Origin: Ruminococcus sp.
GTDB taxonomy: Bacteria > Bacillota > Clostridia > Oscillospirales > Ruminococcaceae
NCBI GenBank assembly: GCA_015066805.1
Contig: SVNP01000001.1
Span: 62,001-126,000 of the forward strand
Direction of reading: 5' to 3'
DNA: 64,000 nucleotides
Shown here: piece by piece, positions 37,580-45,379 of the stretch
How the letters are laid out: the number at the start of each line of letters is the position of its first letter
Numbering within the stretch: the first letter of the stretch is position 1
Notes under the pieces: generated by a model
Databases searched by the model: none
What the model was told of the DNA's origin: nothing
The model's input: the letters and a program-made list of their open reading frames with translations, nothing else
Made by a program: the position numbers and the translations under genes

Positions 37580-37608
37580 ATGATAGCACATACAAGGGGA
37601 AAAATCAA
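37580..37608 (-). promoter_or_regulatory. Possible promoter of the YfhO gene
   Basis: Minus-strand TTGATT (37603-37608), 17 bases, TATCAT (37580-37585). It overlaps the last codons of dpaB and lies upstream of the terminator hairpin. Confidence 0.55.
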
Positions 37609-38207
37609 GATGTTTCCATGGCATATTTTACCAAAACAGGCTGTAACTGCCGATGCTCCAGGGCAGCGGCAACCGTCTGAGGGATCAGGGAAAAATCACC
37701 CACCAGTGAAGTAGGCTTCTGCAGAGGGGCATCCTGCCCGAAAGGCACGAAAAAGTAGTGCTTGCGGTTCAGCAGATCACCCAGATTCCGTGCCGAAGCT
37801 GAAAGCCCATCATTGGTGGAAATACAAAGGATTACGGGTTTTCCCCCACGCAAATGAGATTTTACCGCCATGGTCACGGTATTATCGGTAATGCCCGCCG
37901 CCAGCTTTGCCAGCAAATTACCCGTACAGGGAGCCACCACCAACGCATCTGTCAGATTTTTGGGACCAATGGGTTCCGCATCGACGATACTCTGCACGAT
38001 CCGACCGTTGCCAAGCAGTGCCAGCTCCTCCAAAAAGGCGGTAGGCGAACCAAACCGTGTAGTGATCTGAGCAAAATGCTCTGAAACCACAGGCACCAGC
38101 TCTGCACCTGCTTCGGCGCAAGCCTTTGCGGCGTTGAGTCCCTTACGGGCACAGCAAAAAGAGCCGCACATGGCAAATCCCAGTCTGCATCCGTTCAGAT
38201 CAGCCAT
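37605..38207 (-). CDS. dpaB: Dipicolinate synthase subunit B (SpoVFB)
   Basis: Flavoprotein subunit of dipicolinate synthase, which makes the spore-core metabolite DPA in the mother cell; 200 aa. The FMN-binding start CRLGFAMCGSFC, SIVDAEPIGPKNLTDALVVAPCTGN, CISTNDGLSASARN and FVPFGQDAPLQKP match the family closely. Its ATG and GGAGG lie within the last codons of the dpaA fragment, as in an intact dpaA-dpaB operon. Apparently intact, while dpaA is broken. Confidence 0.93.
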   Translation of the reverse strand: MADLNGCRLGFAMCGSFCCARKGLNAAKACAEAGAELVPVVSEHFAQITTRFGSPTAFLEELALLGNGRIVQSIVDAEPIGPKNLTDALVVAPCTGNLLAKLAAGITDNTVTMAVKSHLRGGKPVILCISTNDGLSASARNLGDLLNRKHYFFVPFGQDAPLQKPTSLVGDFSLIPQTVAAALEHRQLQPVLVKYAMETS

Positions 38208-38343
38208 TGTATTCGCCTCCTTCTTCGAGCATACCAAGCACAGTATCCGCAACGATCTGCCCCGCAGTAACCGGAGCCGTTTTTCCCGGCAGAGCCAACG
38301 CCCAGATCACCTTTACACCCAAAGCAGCAGCGGCTTCAACATC
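38200..38343 (-). pseudogene. dpaA: dpaA fragment: C-terminal 47 codons
   Basis: In the frame overlapping the dpaB start, codons for DVEAAAALGVKVIWALALPG, then KTAPVTAGQIVADTVLGMLE and a short tail reproduce the C-terminus of dipicolinate synthase subunit A. The overlap with dpaB is the normal operon joint. Upstream of 38343 a few more codons are open but do not match the family, and a TGA soon follows. No start codon or promoter serves this piece. The preceding family motif (LDLASKPGG) is found at 44306-44335 instead. Confidence 0.85.
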
Positions 38344-38344
38344 A
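38337..38344 (-). repeat. Breakpoint repeat TGATGTTG, dpaA C-terminal side
   Basis: Eight bases shared with 44296-44303 at the place where dpaA similarity begins. With flanks, 12 of 13 plus-strand positions agree (GGCTnCAACATCA). Joining the two copies restores the reading frame. An 8-base match could be chance or coding conservation. Confidence 0.5.
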
Positions 38345-39094
38345 ACGCCCCATGATGTCGCAGGCAGCAGAAGTCAACCGCCAGAGATTGCATTTCTGTC
38401 GTTTTCCGATCTTCTCGGTCATGCCCAAACGCTCCAGCAGATTCAGCAGCATACGGGCTTCCGTCTCTCCACAGGAGCAGCCCGCAGCCGCCTCTGCTGC
38501 TACAAAGGTATCCGGCAGGGTACAAGGCAGCAGTCCAAGATAGTCCACCGGTGTTTCCAGCATCTGAATGCCATGCAGAGCAATGGGCACACGATCAATA
38601 TGCTCTCCGCGGATCTTTTTTTGTTTGCCATAGCCATTCATACAGCGATATTGCTCCACCTCTACGCTGCAAAGAGCAAAGCGCAGCCCGGGATGTCCGA
38701 TCAGCTCCCGCAGGCTGTAAATCTCGGAAAGCACCGTGTACACCGATTCCTTTTTTGGCGAACGCCTTCTGGACTGCACCACACCGTTTTCATCCACCCA
38801 GACCACCCAACGCGGAGCAGCAATGGGATGCACGACTGTCACAGGGCAAACCTCCAGAAAAGCACGCAGTTTTTCCTTCAGTCGGATAAAGCTCCGTGTC
38901 TGCACCTCAATAACGCCGTCTTCCGTGACTGCATCTGCCACAAAACCACCCACAGATTGCTCATGGGTCAATGGGTCGGGGGCAAAATAATACTTCAGCG
39001 CCAGATGCAGGGTACGTTCACGCAGCGTACCGATGCCCTTACAGCCAAGATCTCCGGCTGCAGCATCAAGAGCTGCGGAAAAACGTTCTTCCAT
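38342..39094 (-). CDS. Conserved protein of unknown function, possible nuclease fold
   Basis: 250 aa, no signal peptide or membrane helix. The segment HEQSVGGFVADAVTEDGVIEVQTRSF (~54-79, split here for reference: Asp at ~66, Glu-Val-Gln at ~74-76) resembles a PD-(D/E)XK-type core, but this is weak. A helix-turn-helix-like C-terminus (LLNLLERLGMTEKIGKR) follows. AAAGGAGG precedes the ATG. The last codon touches the dpaA breakpoint: its TGA ends at 38342, next to the dpaA fragment. I do not recognise its function. Confidence 0.75.
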   Translation of the reverse strand: MEERFSAALDAAAGDLGCKGIGTLRERTLHLALKYYFAPDPLTHEQSVGGFVADAVTEDGVIEVQTRSFIRLKEKLRAFLEVCPVTVVHPIAAPRWVVWVDENGVVQSRRRSPKKESVYTVLSEIYSLRELIGHPGLRFALCSVEVEQYRCMNGYGKQKKIRGEHIDRVPIALHGIQMLETPVDYLGLLPCTLPDTFVAAEAAAGCSCGETEARMLLNLLERLGMTEKIGKRQKCNLWRLTSAACDIMGR

Positions 39095-39112
39095 GGGGTG
39101 CCTCCTTTCATG

Positions 39113-39143
39113 AAAAAAGCACAGTGCCCATTGGACACTGTGC
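39113..39143 (-). terminator. Terminator after the sugar ABC permease operon
   Basis: A GC-containing stem (39119-39126 with 39136-39143) followed on the minus strand by six T (39113-39118), 16 bases past the permease stop. Confidence 0.85.
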
Positions 39144-39159
39144 CTTTGCTTGTGGTAGA

Positions 39160-40056
39160 TTACTCCTTCACACCACCGGCAGCAACACCGGCAATGATGA
39201 ACTTGGAGAGGACCAGGTAGATGATCACCACAGGGATGATAGACAGGGTGATAGCCATATTGTTAGCACCCAGATCCACAACACGGTCCAGAGCAACGAC
39301 CTTCTGCACGATCATAGGCATGGTGAGCTGTTCGGTCTTGCCGGAAACCAGAACCAGAGCCTGAGTGTAGTAGTCGTTCCACTTGGAGATAAATGCAAAG
39401 ATTGCCTGAACAGCGAATGCCGGCTTCATCATGGGGATAGAAATGGTGAGGAAGGTACGGAATTCGTTGGAGCCGTCGATTCGGGCAGCCTCAATGATAT
39501 CCAGCGGGAAGGAGGACAACATATACTGGCGCATGAAGAATACGATGGCGGGCGCTGCGATGGAGGGAATGATCAGCGGGATGTAGCTGTCAACCAGACC
39601 CATCTTTACGATCATGTTCAGGAAACCTACGGAGGTAACCTGGGTGGGAACCATCATAACTGCCAGGATGAAGGTGAACATAGGGCCACTCATCTTGAAG
39701 TCATAAACCACCAGACCGTATGCAGTCAGACCGGAGAAGAAAACTGTCAGCGCACAGCAGCTACCGGCGATGATCAGAGAGTTCTTCAGACCGATCAGGG
39801 GGTGATAGAATGCAGAGTACAGACCATCATTCATCAAAGTCTTGAAGTTTTTGATAGCCATAGTGCCGGGCAGGAACGAAACACCGCTCTCAATGATCTG
39901 AGCATTGGAACGAGTAGCATTGATCACCAGAACGAGGATCGGGCCCAGGCAGATGATGGTCAGCAGGACAAGCACGATGAAAATGAGCACGGACTTGACC
40001 ATAATGGAAGTCTGATAGCTTCCGGAATCAGAAGCGTACTTTACCTTCTTGCTCAT
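39160..40056 (-). CDS. Carbohydrate ABC transporter permease, MalG type
   Basis: Inner-membrane permease of a CUT1-type sugar importer; 298 aa with six predicted helices. The cytoplasmic EAA loop is EAARIDGSNEFRTFLTISIPMMKP-like (~195-218; key residues EAA...G......P). It overlaps the partner permease by 4 bases (ATGA). The substrate is not evident; in a cellulolytic species a cello- or manno-oligosaccharide is plausible. Confidence 0.93.
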   Translation of the reverse strand: MSKKVKYASDSGSYQTSIMVKSVLIFIVLVLLTIICLGPILVLVINATRSNAQIIESGVSFLPGTMAIKNFKTLMNDGLYSAFYHPLIGLKNSLIIAGSCCALTVFFSGLTAYGLVVYDFKMSGPMFTFILAVMMVPTQVTSVGFLNMIVKMGLVDSYIPLIIPSIAAPAIVFFMRQYMLSSFPLDIIEAARIDGSNEFRTFLTISIPMMKPAFAVQAIFAFISKWNDYYTQALVLVSGKTEQLTMPMIVQKVVALDRVVDLGANNMAITLSIIPVVIIYLVLSKFIIAGVAAGGVKE

Positions 40057-41159
40057 AAACCAAGTCCACCTCCTTGTGCAGCCTTTTTCTTTGCTTCCTT
40101 CATGGCCTGCTTTCTCTTCTTCTTGATCTCGATGGCGTGCTTATCGCGCTGCACATAGAAGACCATAGCACCCAGAATACTGGTGATAACGAAGAGGATC
40201 ACAGAAGCCGAAGCGGAATAACCGTAGCTGGGGGAGGCAAAGTTTGCATGGAACATATCGTAGATAAATACTGCCGCTGTTTCGGTGTACTGGTTGAGGG
40301 TAGAACCGGTGCGATACATATAGGGAATATCGAACATCTGGAAACCACCGATCATAGAAGTCAGCAGGGTGTAAACCATGATGGACTTCAGCAGAGGCAG
40401 GGTAATGCGCCAGAAGGTCTGGCGGGAGTTTGCGCCGTCGATCTCGGCGGCCTCAAACAGGGAACCGTTGATGCTCATGATACCGGACATCAGCATGATC
40501 ATGGTATTACCAAACCACATCCACACCTGGATGAACATGATGATCACACGGGAAGCCCACTTATCGGAGGAGAAGAAGAAATCGCCGTCCTTCACCATGG
40601 CATCGGGGGTAATTCCTTCAATGAAGTTGTAGAATCCCGGAGCAGATACCTCAAGCTTATCCAGCAGGTTGTTGGCAACGCTGTAGGGAGAGTTACTGAT
40701 CAGGGACAAGAACAAACCGGCAACGGAAGCTGCGGTGATGATGTTGGGCATATACATAACGACTTTGAAGAAGCCTTTGCCGGGCATCTTAACACGCATA
40801 TCCGTAAACCAGACTGCAAGCAAAAGGGAGAGGGCGATCTGCGGGATAAAGTTGCCGCCCCAGATGATGACGGTGTTGCCCATGCAGCGTACAAAACGCT
40901 CATGGATACCCATGGACTTGAAGTCCGTACCGCCGAACAGAATTGTCTTGAAGTTATCAAGACCGACAAAGCAGTTAATTGATGTACCGGCCTCGTCAAG
41001 CTTAGGGGTATTACCGTTGCCGTGGAAGGCAAGCATAAACGTCTCGATGAGAGGCCAAAGCATAAAGATGAAGTACACGATAAAGAACGGCGCCACGAAA
41101 ATGTAGCCGTACTTCGCGTAGCTAACGGACTTGATCCGTCTTTGTGCAGCTGTAGCCAT
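40053..41159 (-). CDS. Carbohydrate ABC transporter permease, MalF type
   Basis: Second permease of the importer; 368 aa. It has about six helices, an extended periplasm-facing loop (~165-190) and the EAA loop EAAEIDGANSRQTFWRITLP. The C-terminus is Lys/Ala-rich (KKKRKQAMKEAKKK). It starts 161 bases after the binding-protein gene, with a stable hairpin in the gap that may lower permease expression. No ATPase gene is present; these systems often share an MsmK-type ATPase encoded elsewhere. Confidence 0.93.
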   Translation of the reverse strand: MATAAQRRIKSVSYAKYGYIFVAPFFIVYFIFMLWPLIETFMLAFHGNGNTPKLDEAGTSINCFVGLDNFKTILFGGTDFKSMGIHERFVRCMGNTVIIWGGNFIPQIALSLLLAVWFTDMRVKMPGKGFFKVVMYMPNIITAASVAGLFLSLISNSPYSVANNLLDKLEVSAPGFYNFIEGITPDAMVKDGDFFFSSDKWASRVIIMFIQVWMWFGNTMIMLMSGIMSINGSLFEAAEIDGANSRQTFWRITLPLLKSIMVYTLLTSMIGGFQMFDIPYMYRTGSTLNQYTETAAVFIYDMFHANFASPSYGYSASASVILFVITSILGAMVFYVQRDKHAIEIKKKRKQAMKEAKKKAAQGGGLGL

Positions 41160-41216
41160 TCAGCACACCCTTTCAAAACAAAAATTAACAAGCGCAGGGG
41201 TCAATATAAAATATAC

Positions 41217-41242
41217 GCCTATAGGGCTTTCGCCCTATAGGC
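41217..41242 (-). other. Intercistronic hairpin between binding-protein and permease genes
   Basis: A perfect 11-bp stem (41217-41227 with 41232-41242, loop GAAA on the minus strand) without a strong T run. Such elements stabilise the upstream message and reduce downstream expression, as in mal operons; the role here is inferred. Confidence 0.7.
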
Positions 41243-41320
41243 ACATATTCGGTTATGCTTTTCAGGCATTATTCAGTTGTTCTGTCTATATCGTCAGAAC
41301 CTCCGTTTGAAAAACGGAAA

Positions 41321-42769
41321 TTACTGAACGTTCAGGCCCTCGATCTGAGCAGCTGCCTTCTTGAACTCGTTGATCATGTTATCGTAGGAAGTGTAGCCCT
41401 CAACACCCTTCAGGTAGTTGGTAACGGAATCGTTGAAAGCCTTCTTGATCTGGGAGTCAAATGCAGTGATCTTACCGGTCATGTCGATGTTGCCGGCTGC
41501 CTCGAACAGGATGCTCCAGGGGTTGGTTCTCAGCATGGGGTTGTTAGACTTCTCGTTCTTGCCAACCTTCTCCATAACGGTGGGGTTGTTCACGAACTCG
41601 CCCTTGAACAGAGCGTAGGACTCCATGGTCTCCTCGTTGATGGTGAAGTGCTCGACGAATGCCTTTGCCAGAGTGCCGTTGTCGCACTTGGGAGACAGAG
41701 CCAGCCAAGAACCGCCCCATGCATAGCCGGAAGGACCAGCGATGATGTCGAACTTGTTGTAGAGGTCAGGATTGTTGATCACATCATCCTTACCCTCCTC
41801 ACGGGTAACGCCGCCGGCAGCGGACTCCAACTGACCGCCGGCACCCAGGCACCAAGTGCAGAAGGTGTAGCCCAGAACGGACTCGTCAGCAGCCTGGTTC
41901 AGCCAGCCATCGCCCCACTGATCAACAGTAGAAACGTAGCCCTCATCCCACATGGTCTTAGCGATGTCAGCGTAGGTCTTGCAGTAATCATCGATTACCA
42001 GGTTGTCGTCCTTGTCTGCCCATGCAGAAGAACGGTTGTAGGAATATACCTGCCAGATACCGCCCAGAGAATCGTACAGAGCAGTCTTGCCTTCGGAAGC
42101 ATCCTTCAGCTCCTTAGCGGTAGCCAGAACGGTGTCCCAATCCTTCATCTTTGCCTGCATCTCAGCGTTGGTCTTAACGCCCAGCAGCTTCTCAGCCAGG
42201 TCATAGCGGTAAACGTAGCCGCCGGGAGTGGACTGCCAGGAAGCACCCTTCAGAACGCCGTTGTCGTTGGTAGCAACTGCAACAGTGTACTCATAGCAGC
42301 CATCGAAATCGGAAGCCTCGAAACCGAGGTCGCTCATAGGAGCGGTGTAATCATCATTGTTGATGTAGTCCAGGATCCAGTCTGCCTCGAGAACGAACAG
42401 GTCTGCATCCTGATCGCCCTGGAAGTAAGTTGCATACTTCTCACGAGCCTCTGCGCCCTCAGAACCAACGTTCACGTACTCGACCTTGCCCTTGTACTCG
42501 GAGTTGGTCTCCTCGAAGTGCTGAATCATGAACTTAACGTCATTGTCGGTCCAGCAGAGAACGGACAGCTTCTCACCGTCATCGGTGAACTTGGTGCCGT
42601 TGCCTTCCTCGCCCTTGCTGTCAGCGGTGCTGTCAGCCTTGGAATCGGAAGTAGAGTTGGTGGTGGAGTTGCCGGTGCTGGTATCCTTGTCGTCATCACA
42701 TGCCACGAAAGCAGTGGAAGCGATTGCCAGAGTAGCAACCAGAGCCAGGGTCTTCTTGAGCTTGTTCAT
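41321..42769 (-). CDS. Carbohydrate ABC transporter substrate-binding lipoprotein
   Basis: Extracellular solute-binding protein; 482 aa. The lipoprotein signal ends at Cys24 (STAFVAC), followed by an Asp/Ser/Thr/Lys-rich spacer (~25-60) and the type I solute-binding fold (LSVLCWTDNDVKFMIQHFEE onward). Many Trp residues (GASWQSTPGG, WGDGWLN, YAWGGSWLAL) suit sugar stacking. The ATG at 42769 has AAGGAGG upstream. The frame is open for 70 further codons upstream, but that stretch is promoter leader, not protein. First gene of the transporter operon. Confidence 0.94.
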   Translation of the reverse strand: MNKLKKTLALVATLAIASTAFVACDDDKDTSTGNSTTNSTSDSKADSTADSKGEEGNGTKFTDDGEKLSVLCWTDNDVKFMIQHFEETNSEYKGKVEYVNVGSEGAEAREKYATYFQGDQDADLFVLEADWILDYINNDDYTAPMSDLGFEASDFDGCYEYTVAVATNDNGVLKGASWQSTPGGYVYRYDLAEKLLGVKTNAEMQAKMKDWDTVLATAKELKDASEGKTALYDSLGGIWQVYSYNRSSAWADKDDNLVIDDYCKTYADIAKTMWDEGYVSTVDQWGDGWLNQAADESVLGYTFCTWCLGAGGQLESAAGGVTREEGKDDVINNPDLYNKFDIIAGPSGYAWGGSWLALSPKCDNGTLAKAFVEHFTINEETMESYALFKGEFVNNPTVMEKVGKNEKSNNPMLRTNPWSILFEAAGNIDMTGKITAFDSQIKKAFNDSVTNYLKGVEGYTSYDNMINEFKKAAAQIEGLNVQ

Positions 42770-42993
42770 AGTAGTTTCCTCCTTAATTTTGCTGCGAGCA
42801 TATTGCTGCGTGTCGCAGCTTTGAAAATTGTGCCGCTTCTTATGAATACGGCAGTGCATTTCGCTGCGGGTTACGCAGCACCGGTCGGCTCGTTTCTTTC
42901 GTGTCGATCGGTTATCAAAACAGGCAGCTTCCGCAGGCCGGTGGGTGTCAGGCTCCCGCAGGCGCACAGCTTCCGCCATGTTTTCATACTACA

Positions 42994-43022
42994 AATATAC
43001 ACGAATTACCGTGAAAAGTCAA
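42994..43022 (-). promoter_or_regulatory. Promoter of the sugar transporter operon, with a long leader
   Basis: Minus-strand TTGACT (43017-43022), 17 bases, TATATT (42994-42999). The leader to the binding-protein start is about 220 bases (42770-42988), GC-rich at the 5' end. I recognised no known riboswitch in it. The whole gene-free stretch 42770-43263 holds this, the leader, and the opposite promoter at 43202-43230. Confidence 0.8.
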
Positions 43023-43201
43023 TCTGTAAAACCGAATTGTCACCATATTTGTGATATATTCACAATGAATTTCCACATTCCTAAGAATTATTTTGTCGAA
43101 ATACACATTGCGAAAGTGGTTTTTATTGCATTTTCTCCTATAAAGGTTACAAATCGGTAACAAACTTGTCGGTTTGAAGCAAACGGGATCAAGGCTTTTT
43201 C

Positions 43202-43230
43202 TTGCATTTTATGCGGTTTTGCTGTATGAT
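43202..43230 (+). promoter_or_regulatory. Promoter of the 107-aa protein gene
   Basis: TTGCAT (43202-43207), 17 bases, TATGAT (43225-43230); AAGGAG and the start follow within 35 bases. Confidence 0.7.
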
Positions 43231-43263
43231 ATAGGGGAACCCCACAAGAAAGGAGCCTGAACA

Positions 43264-43587
43264 ATGGCACATTATCCCTTCAGCGAGCGTCCTGATCTGC
43301 TGGTCTTCACCTGCATCCATGTTCTGGAGGAGGGCAAGCCTGTCACCATGGTATGCCATCATTTTGATGATAACGCATGGGAATTCCTCTGCGACGGCCA
43401 CCACACCGACGAGGATGCACTGGTCATCAGCATCGGGGAGCTTTGCGAGCAGGACCCCACCCTTGCACTGCTGTGCGATCTGCCCGTAGGCGGTTGTGCC
43501 GTGCGGGAAAGTCGGCAGCACGCATGGCGGTTTGGCCGCATTGAGGATGAGCAGTTCTACCCTGCCGCCGAATCACGGATGAACTGA
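43264..43587 (+). CDS. Conserved hypothetical protein, 107 aa
   Basis: Small cytosolic protein with the pattern of a widespread bacterial family of unknown function: FTCIHVLEEGKPVTMVCHHF, then WEFLCDGHHTDEDALVISIGE and EQDPTLALLCDLPVG. Cysteines and histidines (CHHF, CDGHH) are prominent but no proven metal motif is seen. AAGGAG precedes the ATG. It is the only plus-strand gene between the dpaA fragments, and its end overlaps the convergent ComEA-like gene by 15 bases. Confidence 0.75.
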   Translation: MAHYPFSERPDLLVFTCIHVLEEGKPVTMVCHHFDDNAWEFLCDGHHTDEDALVISIGELCEQDPTLALLCDLPVGGCAVRESRQHAWRFGRIEDEQFYPAAESRMN

Positions 43588-44304
43588 GGTCTGCTCACGG
43601 GGCGTTACATACAAATGCTCCGCCAGCACATCATCCACATAGGAGCCGTTCATGCCATCCACATACAGCACCTCATAGAGATGTGTATAATATTGTATGG
43701 CAGTCCGCAGCTCCAGAATGCCTTCTGCCAGTTGTTTTGTCATGCCGGGGATCAGCAGCAGCTCCTCCTCGGTCACAAGATTCAGGTCGTATCTGCCTGC
43801 CGTCACCGTGAGCGTTGTCTCCGTGGCGGCAGGTCTTTTTGTTGTAGTTTGTGTGATCTCCGTTTCGGGCGGCAGCTCATCCGGAATAAAAAACTCTTCC
43901 ATAATGCGCTGCATCAGGCTTTCGCCCACACCGTCGATGTCTGTCAGCTCGGCTCTGCGGCAAAAGCCTCCTTTGCGTGTACGATCTGTAATGATCCGCT
44001 GCGCCAACACCTGCCCGATGCCCTCCACCCTCATAAGATCTTCCTGTGTTGCGGCATTGAGATCACGGCACAGAGGCTTGGCAGTCGTGGTATCAGCAAC
44101 AGAATCCGCCCCATTTTGTAGCGTGACCAACGTAACCTGTGAAGAAAGGGTCACCTCTGTTTCCGCGGGAGGTTCCCGTGTTGCAGCGGCATAAATCAAG
44201 GCGGCCACTGCCAGCAGGCAGCAGGCCGCCGGCAGCAGACGCTCCGCAGAAAGCCATTTGAATCGTTTCACATCCACACGCCCTTTCGGTGGCTGCAACA
44301 TCAT
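43573..44304 (-). CDS. ComEA-like helix-hairpin-helix protein, membrane-anchored
   Basis: DNA-binding-type HhH protein; about 243 aa. A basic start and one membrane helix (~24-41) are followed by a Thr-rich spacer and two HhH modules: NAATQEDLMRVEGIGQVLAQRI (~84-105) with a second hairpin (DIDGVGESLMQRI), then after a Thr-rich linker NLVTEEELLLIPGMTKQLAEGI (~174-195). ComEA binds DNA during uptake, but no comEC or other competence gene is near. The start is uncertain: ATG at 44304 or 44301 lies inside the dpaA breakpoint with a poor ribosome site; GTG at 44277 has AAAGGG. Confidence 0.78.
   Translation of the reverse strand: MMLQPPKGRVDVKRFKWLSAERLLPAACCLLAVAALIYAAATREPPAETEVTLSSQVTLVTLQNGADSVADTTTAKPLCRDLNAATQEDLMRVEGIGQVLAQRIITDRTRKGGFCRRAELTDIDGVGESLMQRIMEEFFIPDELPPETEITQTTTKRPAATETTLTVTAGRYDLNLVTEEELLLIPGMTKQLAEGILELRTAIQYYTHLYEVLYVDGMNGSYVDDVLAEHLYVTPREQTSVHP
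44296..44303 (-). repeat. Breakpoint repeat TGATGTTG, dpaA middle side
   Basis: Second copy of the 8 bases found at 38337-38344, at the point where dpaA similarity stops. The copies are 5,959 bp apart in direct orientation. Confidence 0.5.
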
Positions 44305-44467
44305 CCCCGCCCGGTTTTGAAGCCAGATCCAGCACGGGTGTATCCTTCGGCAGCAGCCGCAGCCGATCTTCCTTCAGCACAATTTGCGGCACCGTATTGA
44401 TGACCAGCTCCGCAGCCGGCAGGACATCCTCTAGCTGAGAGAAATCCACACCGCGGCAGCCGTTCAC
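44303..44467 (-). pseudogene. dpaA: dpaA fragment: middle part
   Basis: 55 codons in the minus frame match dipicolinate synthase subunit A just before its C-terminal part: GVDFSQLEDVLPAAELVINT, then VPQIVLKEDRLRLLPKDTPV and LDLASKPGGD. LASKPGG is the conserved loop of the family. The match ends at 44303 where the ComEA-like gene begins. Upstream, the frame stays open for a few non-matching codons up to the AraC stop at 44516, and the N-terminal two thirds of dpaA are absent. A GTG at 44467 exists but no ribosome site supports it. Confidence 0.85.
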
Positions 44468-44515
44468 TTCGCTCCGCCAAAGCAGACGAGGAGAAACCGC
44501 CGTGTCCGCCGGAGG

Positions 44516-45379
44516 TTAATCCCGCCAGCGGCGACGGAACGCCAGACAGGTGACGCTTTCCGCCTTTTTGAACTGCTTGGAAAAGTAGCTCTGATCATTA
44601 AAGCCGCACAGGGAGGAGATTTCCTCCACAGACTTGTCCGTAAAGCGCAGCAAACGCTTTGCATAGTTGATCCGCAGACCGATAATATGCTGGAAGATGG
44701 TTTCGCCGTAAGCACGCTTGAACTCTCTGGTCAGGTAATATTTGCTGATGTAGAAGCGGTGGGAAAGGTCATCCAGCGTAATATCGGAGGTAAAGTTTGC
44801 ATCCACATAGGCAAGAATGGTCTTCAGCTTTGCCTGCAATGCGGTGTCATCCTCCTCGCTGATGCTGTTGACGGTCAGCAGCATGGTCAGCAGGTTGGCC
44901 AGAAGGCCGGAGGTAAGGATCTCCGTATCCGCATAGGTTTCGGCATTCAGGCGCAGCAGCTCCTGTACGACCGAAATAAACTTTGCCTGACTGACGGGAT
45001 GGAACACAGGCGGCATCTGTGCAATGAACAGCTTGTAGTATTCCTCGGTGGTGCAGCCGTTAAAGTGTACCCACATCAGCTCCCAAGGCTCCTCGGGGTT
45101 GGATTGGTACACATGGGGCGCACGGCAATCAATGAAGAAGCAGTCGCCTGCCTGAAGCTGGGTGGTCTGTCCGTTGTACATCAGCGAGCCCTTGCCATCC
45201 ATTACAATAGCAAGCAAAAACGATTGCAGATTCTGGCGGCTGGTGTGGTGATCACTGCTTGCCCGCAGATGTCCGCACTCCTGCAGGTAGAAAAAGGTGC
45301 GGCGAGCCACGGCGCTGGGGGTTTTCATCACACGGTTGTCCAGAAGATTATTATGTGTTTCCGTTGTTGTTTGGGACAT
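44516..45379 (-). CDS. AraC family transcriptional regulator
   Basis: Regulator with an N-terminal cupin-like sensor (~15-150: LQAGDCFFIDCRAPHVYQSN) and a C-terminal pair of helix-turn-helix motifs (~190-285: DITLDDLSHRFYISKYYLTREFKRAYG and VEEISSLCGFNDQSYFSKQFKK); 287 aa. AAGGAGGGCAAT precedes the ATG. Sugar-type AraC proteins often control nearby transporters; the ABC operon about 2 kb downstream is a candidate target (inference). Its stop directly abuts the dpaA middle fragment. Confidence 0.93.
   Translation of the reverse strand: MSQTTTETHNNLLDNRVMKTPSAVARRTFFYLQECGHLRASSDHHTSRQNLQSFLLAIVMDGKGSLMYNGQTTQLQAGDCFFIDCRAPHVYQSNPEEPWELMWVHFNGCTTEEYYKLFIAQMPPVFHPVSQAKFISVVQELLRLNAETYADTEILTSGLLANLLTMLLTVNSISEEDDTALQAKLKTILAYVDANFTSDITLDDLSHRFYISKYYLTREFKRAYGETIFQHIIGLRINYAKRLLRFTDKSVEEISSLCGFNDQSYFSKQFKKAESVTCLAFRRRWRD

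Follow-up and report, generated by a model that had tools for sequence, protein, structure and literature searches.

In the skin system of Bacillus subtilis and Clostridioides difficile, as excerpts of the literature describe it, the mother-cell gene sigK lies in pieces, a large serine recombinase acts on it, and the attachment (att) half-sites carry inverted repeats (PMC4191935, PMC5025042); the DNA rearranged in the mother cell is not inherited (PMC4191935), and recombination between attL and attR often requires a directionality factor (PMC5025042). Excerpts likewise describe vfbin, a phage-like element in spoVFB (dpaB) of Bacillus weihenstephanensis (PMC4191935), and gin, an element in gerE of Bacillus cereus ATCC10987 with serine recombinases, no phage genes and an inverted repeat around a central dinucleotide resembling attP, the phage attachment site, which in phage serine recombinase systems is symmetric around such a dinucleotide (PMC5595907). 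Genes of another terminal cell type are interrupted in cyanobacterial heterocysts (nifD, fdxN, hupL), where the part of the survey cited here lists 10 of 87 genes with more than one element and sizes of up to nearly 1 Mb (PMC4874684). Here we describe dpaA, the gene for dipicolinate synthase subunit A (DpaA/SpoVFA), in a 64,000-nucleotide stretch (the window; positions 62001-126000 of contig C8) of a draft genome of Ruminococcus sp. (GCA_015066805.1; 2.07 Mb, 39 contigs, 79.6% complete). dpaA is required for the formation of heat-resistant spores and has a mother-cell role in sporulation. Comparison of sequences across the genus makes it quite probable that this gene is kept as three pieces, which serine recombinases encoded at other loci join at the DNA level in the mother cell.

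A sequence-only reading of the window had reported dpaA as split in two. The split is real, but the gene lies in three pieces, N (amino acids (aa) 1-190), M and C, the first of which is located on a separate contig of the source genome (C21:54537-55106; Table 1). All three pieces are collinear with intact DpaA, N carries the DpaA_N domain, and dpaB, the sole copy found in the source genome, adjoins the end of the gene; the pieces thus belong to dipicolinate synthase subunit A. Several elements of the sequence-only reading were borne out, namely the C-terminal DpaA codons before an intact dpaB, the preceding segment ending in LDLASKPGGD at 44303-44467, the in-frame join of the two, the 5,959 bp between their breakpoints and the lack of a recognisable recombinase in that interval.

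To place these breaks in context, the joined DpaA protein was searched against 30 genomes of the genus, a group of gut bacteria whose named records are metagenome-assembled genomes (MAGs) of uncultured Oscillospiraceae, Ruminococcus or Clostridia. It matched in 27 of them and was not found in G018, G022 and G028. The break between M and C (junction 2) was seen from at least one side, at the same residue, in all 27 dpaA-bearing genomes. In 19 of these, M and C lie on one contig in the same orientation, 5,650-6,784 bp apart from core to core; in the other eight, the two are on separate contigs (G012, G020, G023, G026), or only piece C (G025) or only piece M (G007, G011, G013) was present, each time broken at that residue. 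The break between N and M (junction 1) was present in 23 genomes, in which the site attR1, rather than N, precedes M; in 22 of them, all except G010, N was found with attL1 behind it. N and M are contiguous, with C apart, in G014, G017 and G026, and G025 was left out of this assignment. The sequence-only reading had also proposed a comparison with relatives, and at all 12 more distant outgroup loci (L128-L139) N, M, C and dpaB stand in a row, although in L134 N matched only from residue 54. In the tree, G014 and G026 are sisters and together sister to the split G009 and G010 (100% support), whereas G017 is weakly placed. An AraC gene precedes the joined N-M in G017 (L110) and was not found at that place in G014 (L116); the joined states of these two genomes may differ in history (ancestral or rejoined).

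Both breaks carry predicted fixed sites of the serine-integrase type. The outer arms of these sites make up dyads centred on GG, and within a genome the two arms vary together. At junction 2 the outer arms are near inverted repeats, TGTCTCCGACATCATCC-GG-GGATGATGTCGGAGACA in a composite of several genomes, with 75% match in register versus 19-39% when slid by 1-3 bases, and with 75% match within genomes versus 64% when arms were paired across genomes (19 genomes, p=5e-5, the floor of a test with 20,000 permutations). The dpaA arms of this junction are likewise near inverted repeats (GGCTTCAAAG ... CTTTGAAGCC). The outer arms of junction 1 (GGTTTCC ... GGAAACC) match at 66% within versus 58% across genomes (22 genomes, p=5e-5). 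For all these values, the registers were picked on the same sequences that were scored, and the permutation leaves shared ancestry in. The symmetry of an att site is accordingly present in both the outer and the dpaA arms of junction 2, and in the outer arms only of junction 1. The halves of junction 1 share up to about 8 bp, so the point of crossover is less certain there.

At junction 2, the sequence-only reading had placed the crossover at a shared 8-base repeat. This repeat, TGATGTTG, does occur at both breakpoints, but crossover within it is unlikely, as the letters common to 19 genomes at that place are just GG; moreover, the repeat falls in the outer arm of attL2 but in the dpaA arm of attR2. 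A join at TGATGTTG would give PGGDDV, versus PGGVDF in the intact L128 and PGGIDF in L129 and L130, while a join at GG would give PGGVDF in most genomes (SKPGGVDF, as in L128) and PGGVDV in the source genome. Moving the crossover to GG leaves the spacing unchanged.

Candidate enzymes are encoded elsewhere in the source genome by two recombinase families, C and D, both with Resolvase, Recombinase and zinc-ribbon domains in that order and all above Pfam cut-offs. The domain order assigns them to the large serine recombinases, and their action at these sites is a prediction. Family C, counted at E <1e-150, is present in 24 of the 30 genomes and missing exactly from the three in which N and M are joined (G014, G017, G026) and the three without dpaA (G018, G022, G028), G028 having only a 34% match. 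The 26 assignable genomes comprise 23 that are split with C and 3 that are joined without it (1 in 2,600 by counting). Family D, counted at E <1e-85, is present in 21 of 30 genomes, including all 12 genomes with dpaA and a completeness of 90% or more, and was not found in the dpaA-less G018, G022 and G028. C and D are the only large serine recombinases found in G027. On these profiles, C likely acts at junction 1, and the chances that D acts at junction 2 are about even. Phage relatives of C are remote, the best matching at 30.7% over 69%.

Two further families were set aside for dpaA. Recombinase A was dropped because in the source genome its frame runs together with SpoVT residues 27-180 as an in-frame fusion; even so, G014, a genome with the M|C break, yielded no other large serine recombinase. 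Recombinase B is patchy (14 of 30 genomes), and searches missed it in G008 and G024, both 99% complete and broken at both junctions; open reading frames were called as the longest frame, and the strand was at times wrong, as for B. Separately, a fifth standalone serine recombinase family, F (source contig C28, G011, G012 and G020; L182-L185), comprises proteins of 411-423 aa that are distant from C (32-34%).

The pieces are under purifying selection. No internal stop occurs where the sequences could be aligned (22 genomes for N, 23 for M, 19 for C), and the median ratios of nonsynonymous to synonymous substitution (dN/dS) are 0.27, 0.41 and 0.17, respectively, and 0.135 for dpaB; the ratio is below 1 in every compared pair, synonymous change being close to saturation in many of them. 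Upstream of N, a sigmaK-type motif was found in 21 of 25 genomes versus 17 of 4,445 control windows of the same loci. It stays with N despite differing neighbours of N and is consistent with the mother-cell role of dpaA.

Taken together, the genus-wide break, the serine-integrase-like sites, selection, the sigmaK-type motif and the contiguous outgroup dpaA support the rebuilding of dpaA; that a sporulation gene is rebuilt by site-specific recombination is, on sequence evidence, well supported by comparison. The sequence-only reading had suggested an interruption reversed by DNA rearrangement, and the comparison backs it in part, although only one of the two breaks had been seen. We infer the recombination itself, its confinement to the mother cell and the assignment of enzymes to sites. 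Under the proposed scheme, attL2 and attR2 would recombine at GG, so that some 6 kb of ordinary genes is excised and M becomes continuous with C and dpaB. At junction 1, attL1 behind N would recombine with attR1 before M, joining the promoter-bearing N to M; because N and M are on different contigs, this step would either release a large chromosomal segment or invert it. Family C would act at junction 1 and family D, with a chance near even, at junction 2, the sigmaK-type promoter of N would then drive the joined unit, and the forespore would keep the split genome. In G008, the contig that carries N extends 213 kb past it on the attL1 side, and M lies 49 kb from the end of its contig, so that in direct order more than 260 kb would separate the two sites. 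Whether dpaA is a dispersed gene in the full sense, with a promoter-bearing 5' cassette whose chromosomal neighbours differ between species and which a domesticated serine recombinase joins at sporulation to a distant M, spanning hundreds of kilobases that hold no mobile element, and with a second recombinase removing a conserved block of normal genes, we judge to be evenly balanced. If true, the mother-cell chromosome would be rebuilt twice, and perhaps split or inverted, for one enzyme subunit.

Several observations weigh against this assembly by recombination. The dpaA arms of junction 2 show a small excess of match within genomes (59% versus 56% across, p=0.0016), and those of junction 1 lack a dyad (30.0% versus 30.4%, p=0.84, 22 genomes) and match better when slid by one base (37-40%); attL1 is degenerate in the source genome, G007 and G009. 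As to the enzymes, C of G005 has an internal TGA, and the three dpaA-bearing genomes without C are only 58-81% complete, two of them being sisters. D was not found in G011, G014, G017, G020, G025 and G026, all with the M|C break; three to four misses are expected from incompleteness (missing fractions of 27 MAGs summed). Searches recognised no clear sporulation promoter before the recombinases, C and D included, and found no directionality factor. Finally, a strict sigmaK motif precedes dpaA at 1 of 12 outgroup loci.

The missing promoter before C and D would also suit a reversible switch, in which the sites recombine in growing cells and part of the population holds an intact dpaA, leading to phase variation of dipicolinic acid synthesis. 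The sites and recombinases fit either timing, and N and M are joined in three genomes. However, no assembly shows the alternative state in any of the 23 genomes to which an N|M break could be assigned, or in any of the 27 with the M|C break, and a sigmaK-type motif stands before N, so that we consider such a switch rather unlikely. Alternatively, the pieces could be expressed separately and DpaA assemble from fragments, as purifying selection on the pieces and the promoter motif of N would allow. Yet a start codon with a ribosome-binding site was found for M in 1 of 23 genomes and for C in 4 of 19, and each break falls at recombinase-like sites with covarying outer arms, which makes a split protein very improbable. 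Joining at the RNA or protein level, by trans-splicing or inteins, could accommodate N and M on different contigs, but hardly the DNA-recombinase architecture of the sites and the matching recombinase profile, and on that basis we regard it as extremely unlikely. Equally hard to credit is decay, in which the genus would have given up dipicolinic acid synthesis and dpaA would survive as a broken relic: three genomes do lack a dpaA match, but the reading frames and dN/dS values above and the constancy of the broken residues across divergent species speak against it. An assembly or binning artefact might be suspected from MAGs, one of which carries the region on a second contig (G009:C62, dismissed as a second copy because it is a 99.98% duplicate), but is extremely unlikely, because the break and the genes in the gap are the same whether the assembly came from pig, horse, sheep, goat, buffalo, roe deer or another sample.

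Table 1. Pieces of dpaA, putative recombination sites, candidate recombinases and neighbouring genes. Positions are those of the window unless a contig of the source genome is given.
Feature	Position	Strand	Basis or remark
dpaA piece N	C21:54537-55106		separate contig; DpaA_N, PF16924, 63.9 bits
dpaA piece M, about 55 codons	44309-44473	minus	match to DpaA
dpaA piece C, final 48 codons and stop	38200-38346	minus	aligns with the uninterrupted dpaA that stands just ahead of dpaB at outgroup loci
dpaB (dipicolinate synthase subunit B), intact, directly after piece C	37605-38207	minus	Pfam Flavoprotein
attR2: outer arm, core GG (38348-38349), dpaA arm	38324-38373	minus	site comparison
attL2: dpaA arm, core GG (44307-44308), outer arm	44283-44332	minus	site comparison
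attR1: outer arm, block CGGAGCGAA with presumed core GG (44474-44475), dpaA arm	44450-44499	minus
attL1, partner of attR1	C21, near 55106		behind piece N
Recombinase family C, 500 aa	C4:42187-43686		candidate for junction 1
Recombinase family D	C13:43071-44243		candidate for junction 2
Gap E2 between M and C	38350-44306		would be removed under the model; 5,959 bp core to core
Gene U, 250 aa, unknown function, predicted winged helix	38342-39094	minus	end overlaps attR2; passenger
Two sugar-type ATP-binding cassette (ABC) transporter permeases	39160-40056, 40053-41159	minus	PF00528
Probable solute-binding protein	41321-42979	minus	named from its place and look; Pfam gave no match at 0.1
Small protein, 107 aa	43264-43587	plus	no Pfam match; in 18/19 gaps
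ComEA-like helix-hairpin-helix protein	43573-44304	minus	HHH_3; start overlaps attL2
AraC-type regulator directly upstream of attR1	44516-45379	minus	upstream of M in 18/19 genomes

The sequence-only reading took the 6 kb between M and C for an inserted element, a view that the gene content speaks against. The gap looks like ordinary chromosome, with the same gene order in 19 genomes (ComEA-like gene, small protein, binding protein, two permeases, U), and neither prophage nor mobile-element content was seen among these ComEA-like, transporter and U genes. A serine recombinase was likewise not found in the gap (by a check of ten genomes, among the matches listed in a further search, and by gene order in 19 genomes). 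Gene U (also at L213-L227) matches in 83 of 197 sampled genomes of the family. At 15 inspected of 28 loci in other genera, U had no dpaA or transporter match within a flank of about 1.5 kb. It belongs to no clear Pfam family, and its structural model is confident (predicted local distance difference test score 90.9) but resembles PDB entries only weakly, the hits being winged helices with E values that all miss 0.001. U was set aside as a candidate for a new recombinase; it stands alone at the 15 loci inspected in other genera.

The surroundings of N vary, and the genes that come after it are ordinary chromosomal ones. Behind attL1 lie a GMP synthase gene at 157 bp (G001), a class II transfer RNA (tRNA) synthetase gene at 149 bp (G016) or a LytB-S1 protein gene at 3.6 kb (G008), and in the source genome tRNA-His, -Arg and -Gly are about 1 kb away. 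The source genome and G011 share dnaJ before N, with nothing found in common behind it. Genes before N are common to G001, G002, G005, G008 and G015; behind N, G002 equals G015, and G001 resembles G005 only further out. G016 and G027 are alike on both sides.

A second sporulation gene, spoVT, also looks interrupted. In 13 of the 30 genomes, the best SpoVT match comprises just residues 26/27/28-180 within a longer frame (304-793 aa); in the source genome it lies at C24:114019-114480, and the longer frame is recombinase A (L142:4014-6254). Fourteen other genomes have a full or nearly full SpoVT match and G028 a fragment, and among the 30 none was found in G018 and G022. Upstream at spoVT in G014 is a gene that may encode a relaxase. 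Many short frames, in some genomes several per contig, match just SpoVT residues 1 to 31-40 (for instance G016:C28:56494-84150, G028:C430, G015:C23); they could be normal genes of the AbrB type or copied spoVT 5' ends.

If dpaA is rebuilt in this way, gene finders would label such spore-formers dpaA-deficient. In this genus the half-sites covary as a natural series, on which the reading of DNA by serine recombinases could be tested, and the question of why interruptions persist in sporulation genes could be put to a direct test. Among the open-access papers listed in literature searches, we recognised none that reports a split dpaA, which is weak evidence of novelty, as subscription papers and preprints lay largely outside these searches.

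The dpaA system would work like skin, vfbin and gin, yet is not classed with them. As in skin, a mother-cell sporulation gene is interrupted, its pieces being collinear with the intact outgroup dpaA beside dpaB. However, skin is prophage-like and has its own recombinase, whereas the 6-kb gap has ordinary genes and no recombinase, and junction 1 shows no bounded element; because both an own recombinase and mobile content are lacking, the gap does not fall among skin-type elements. vfbin interrupts the same dipicolinate synthase operon, but in subunit B, and is not a case of a gene in three pieces (PMC4191935). gin, as excerpted, contains three genes for recombinases and is a mobile element, present in few strains (PMC5595907), while the dpaA break is genus-wide with candidate enzymes elsewhere. 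Heterocyst elements, in the portion of the survey cited, were found through the recombinase gene that they contain (PMC4874684), of which the 6-kb gap has none. In the known cases compared, the interrupting DNA forms an element that itself encodes the enzyme for its excision; with genus-wide breaks, candidate enzymes encoded elsewhere and one break that shows no bounded element, the bacterium described here would store a gene in dispersed form and assemble it only in a doomed cell.

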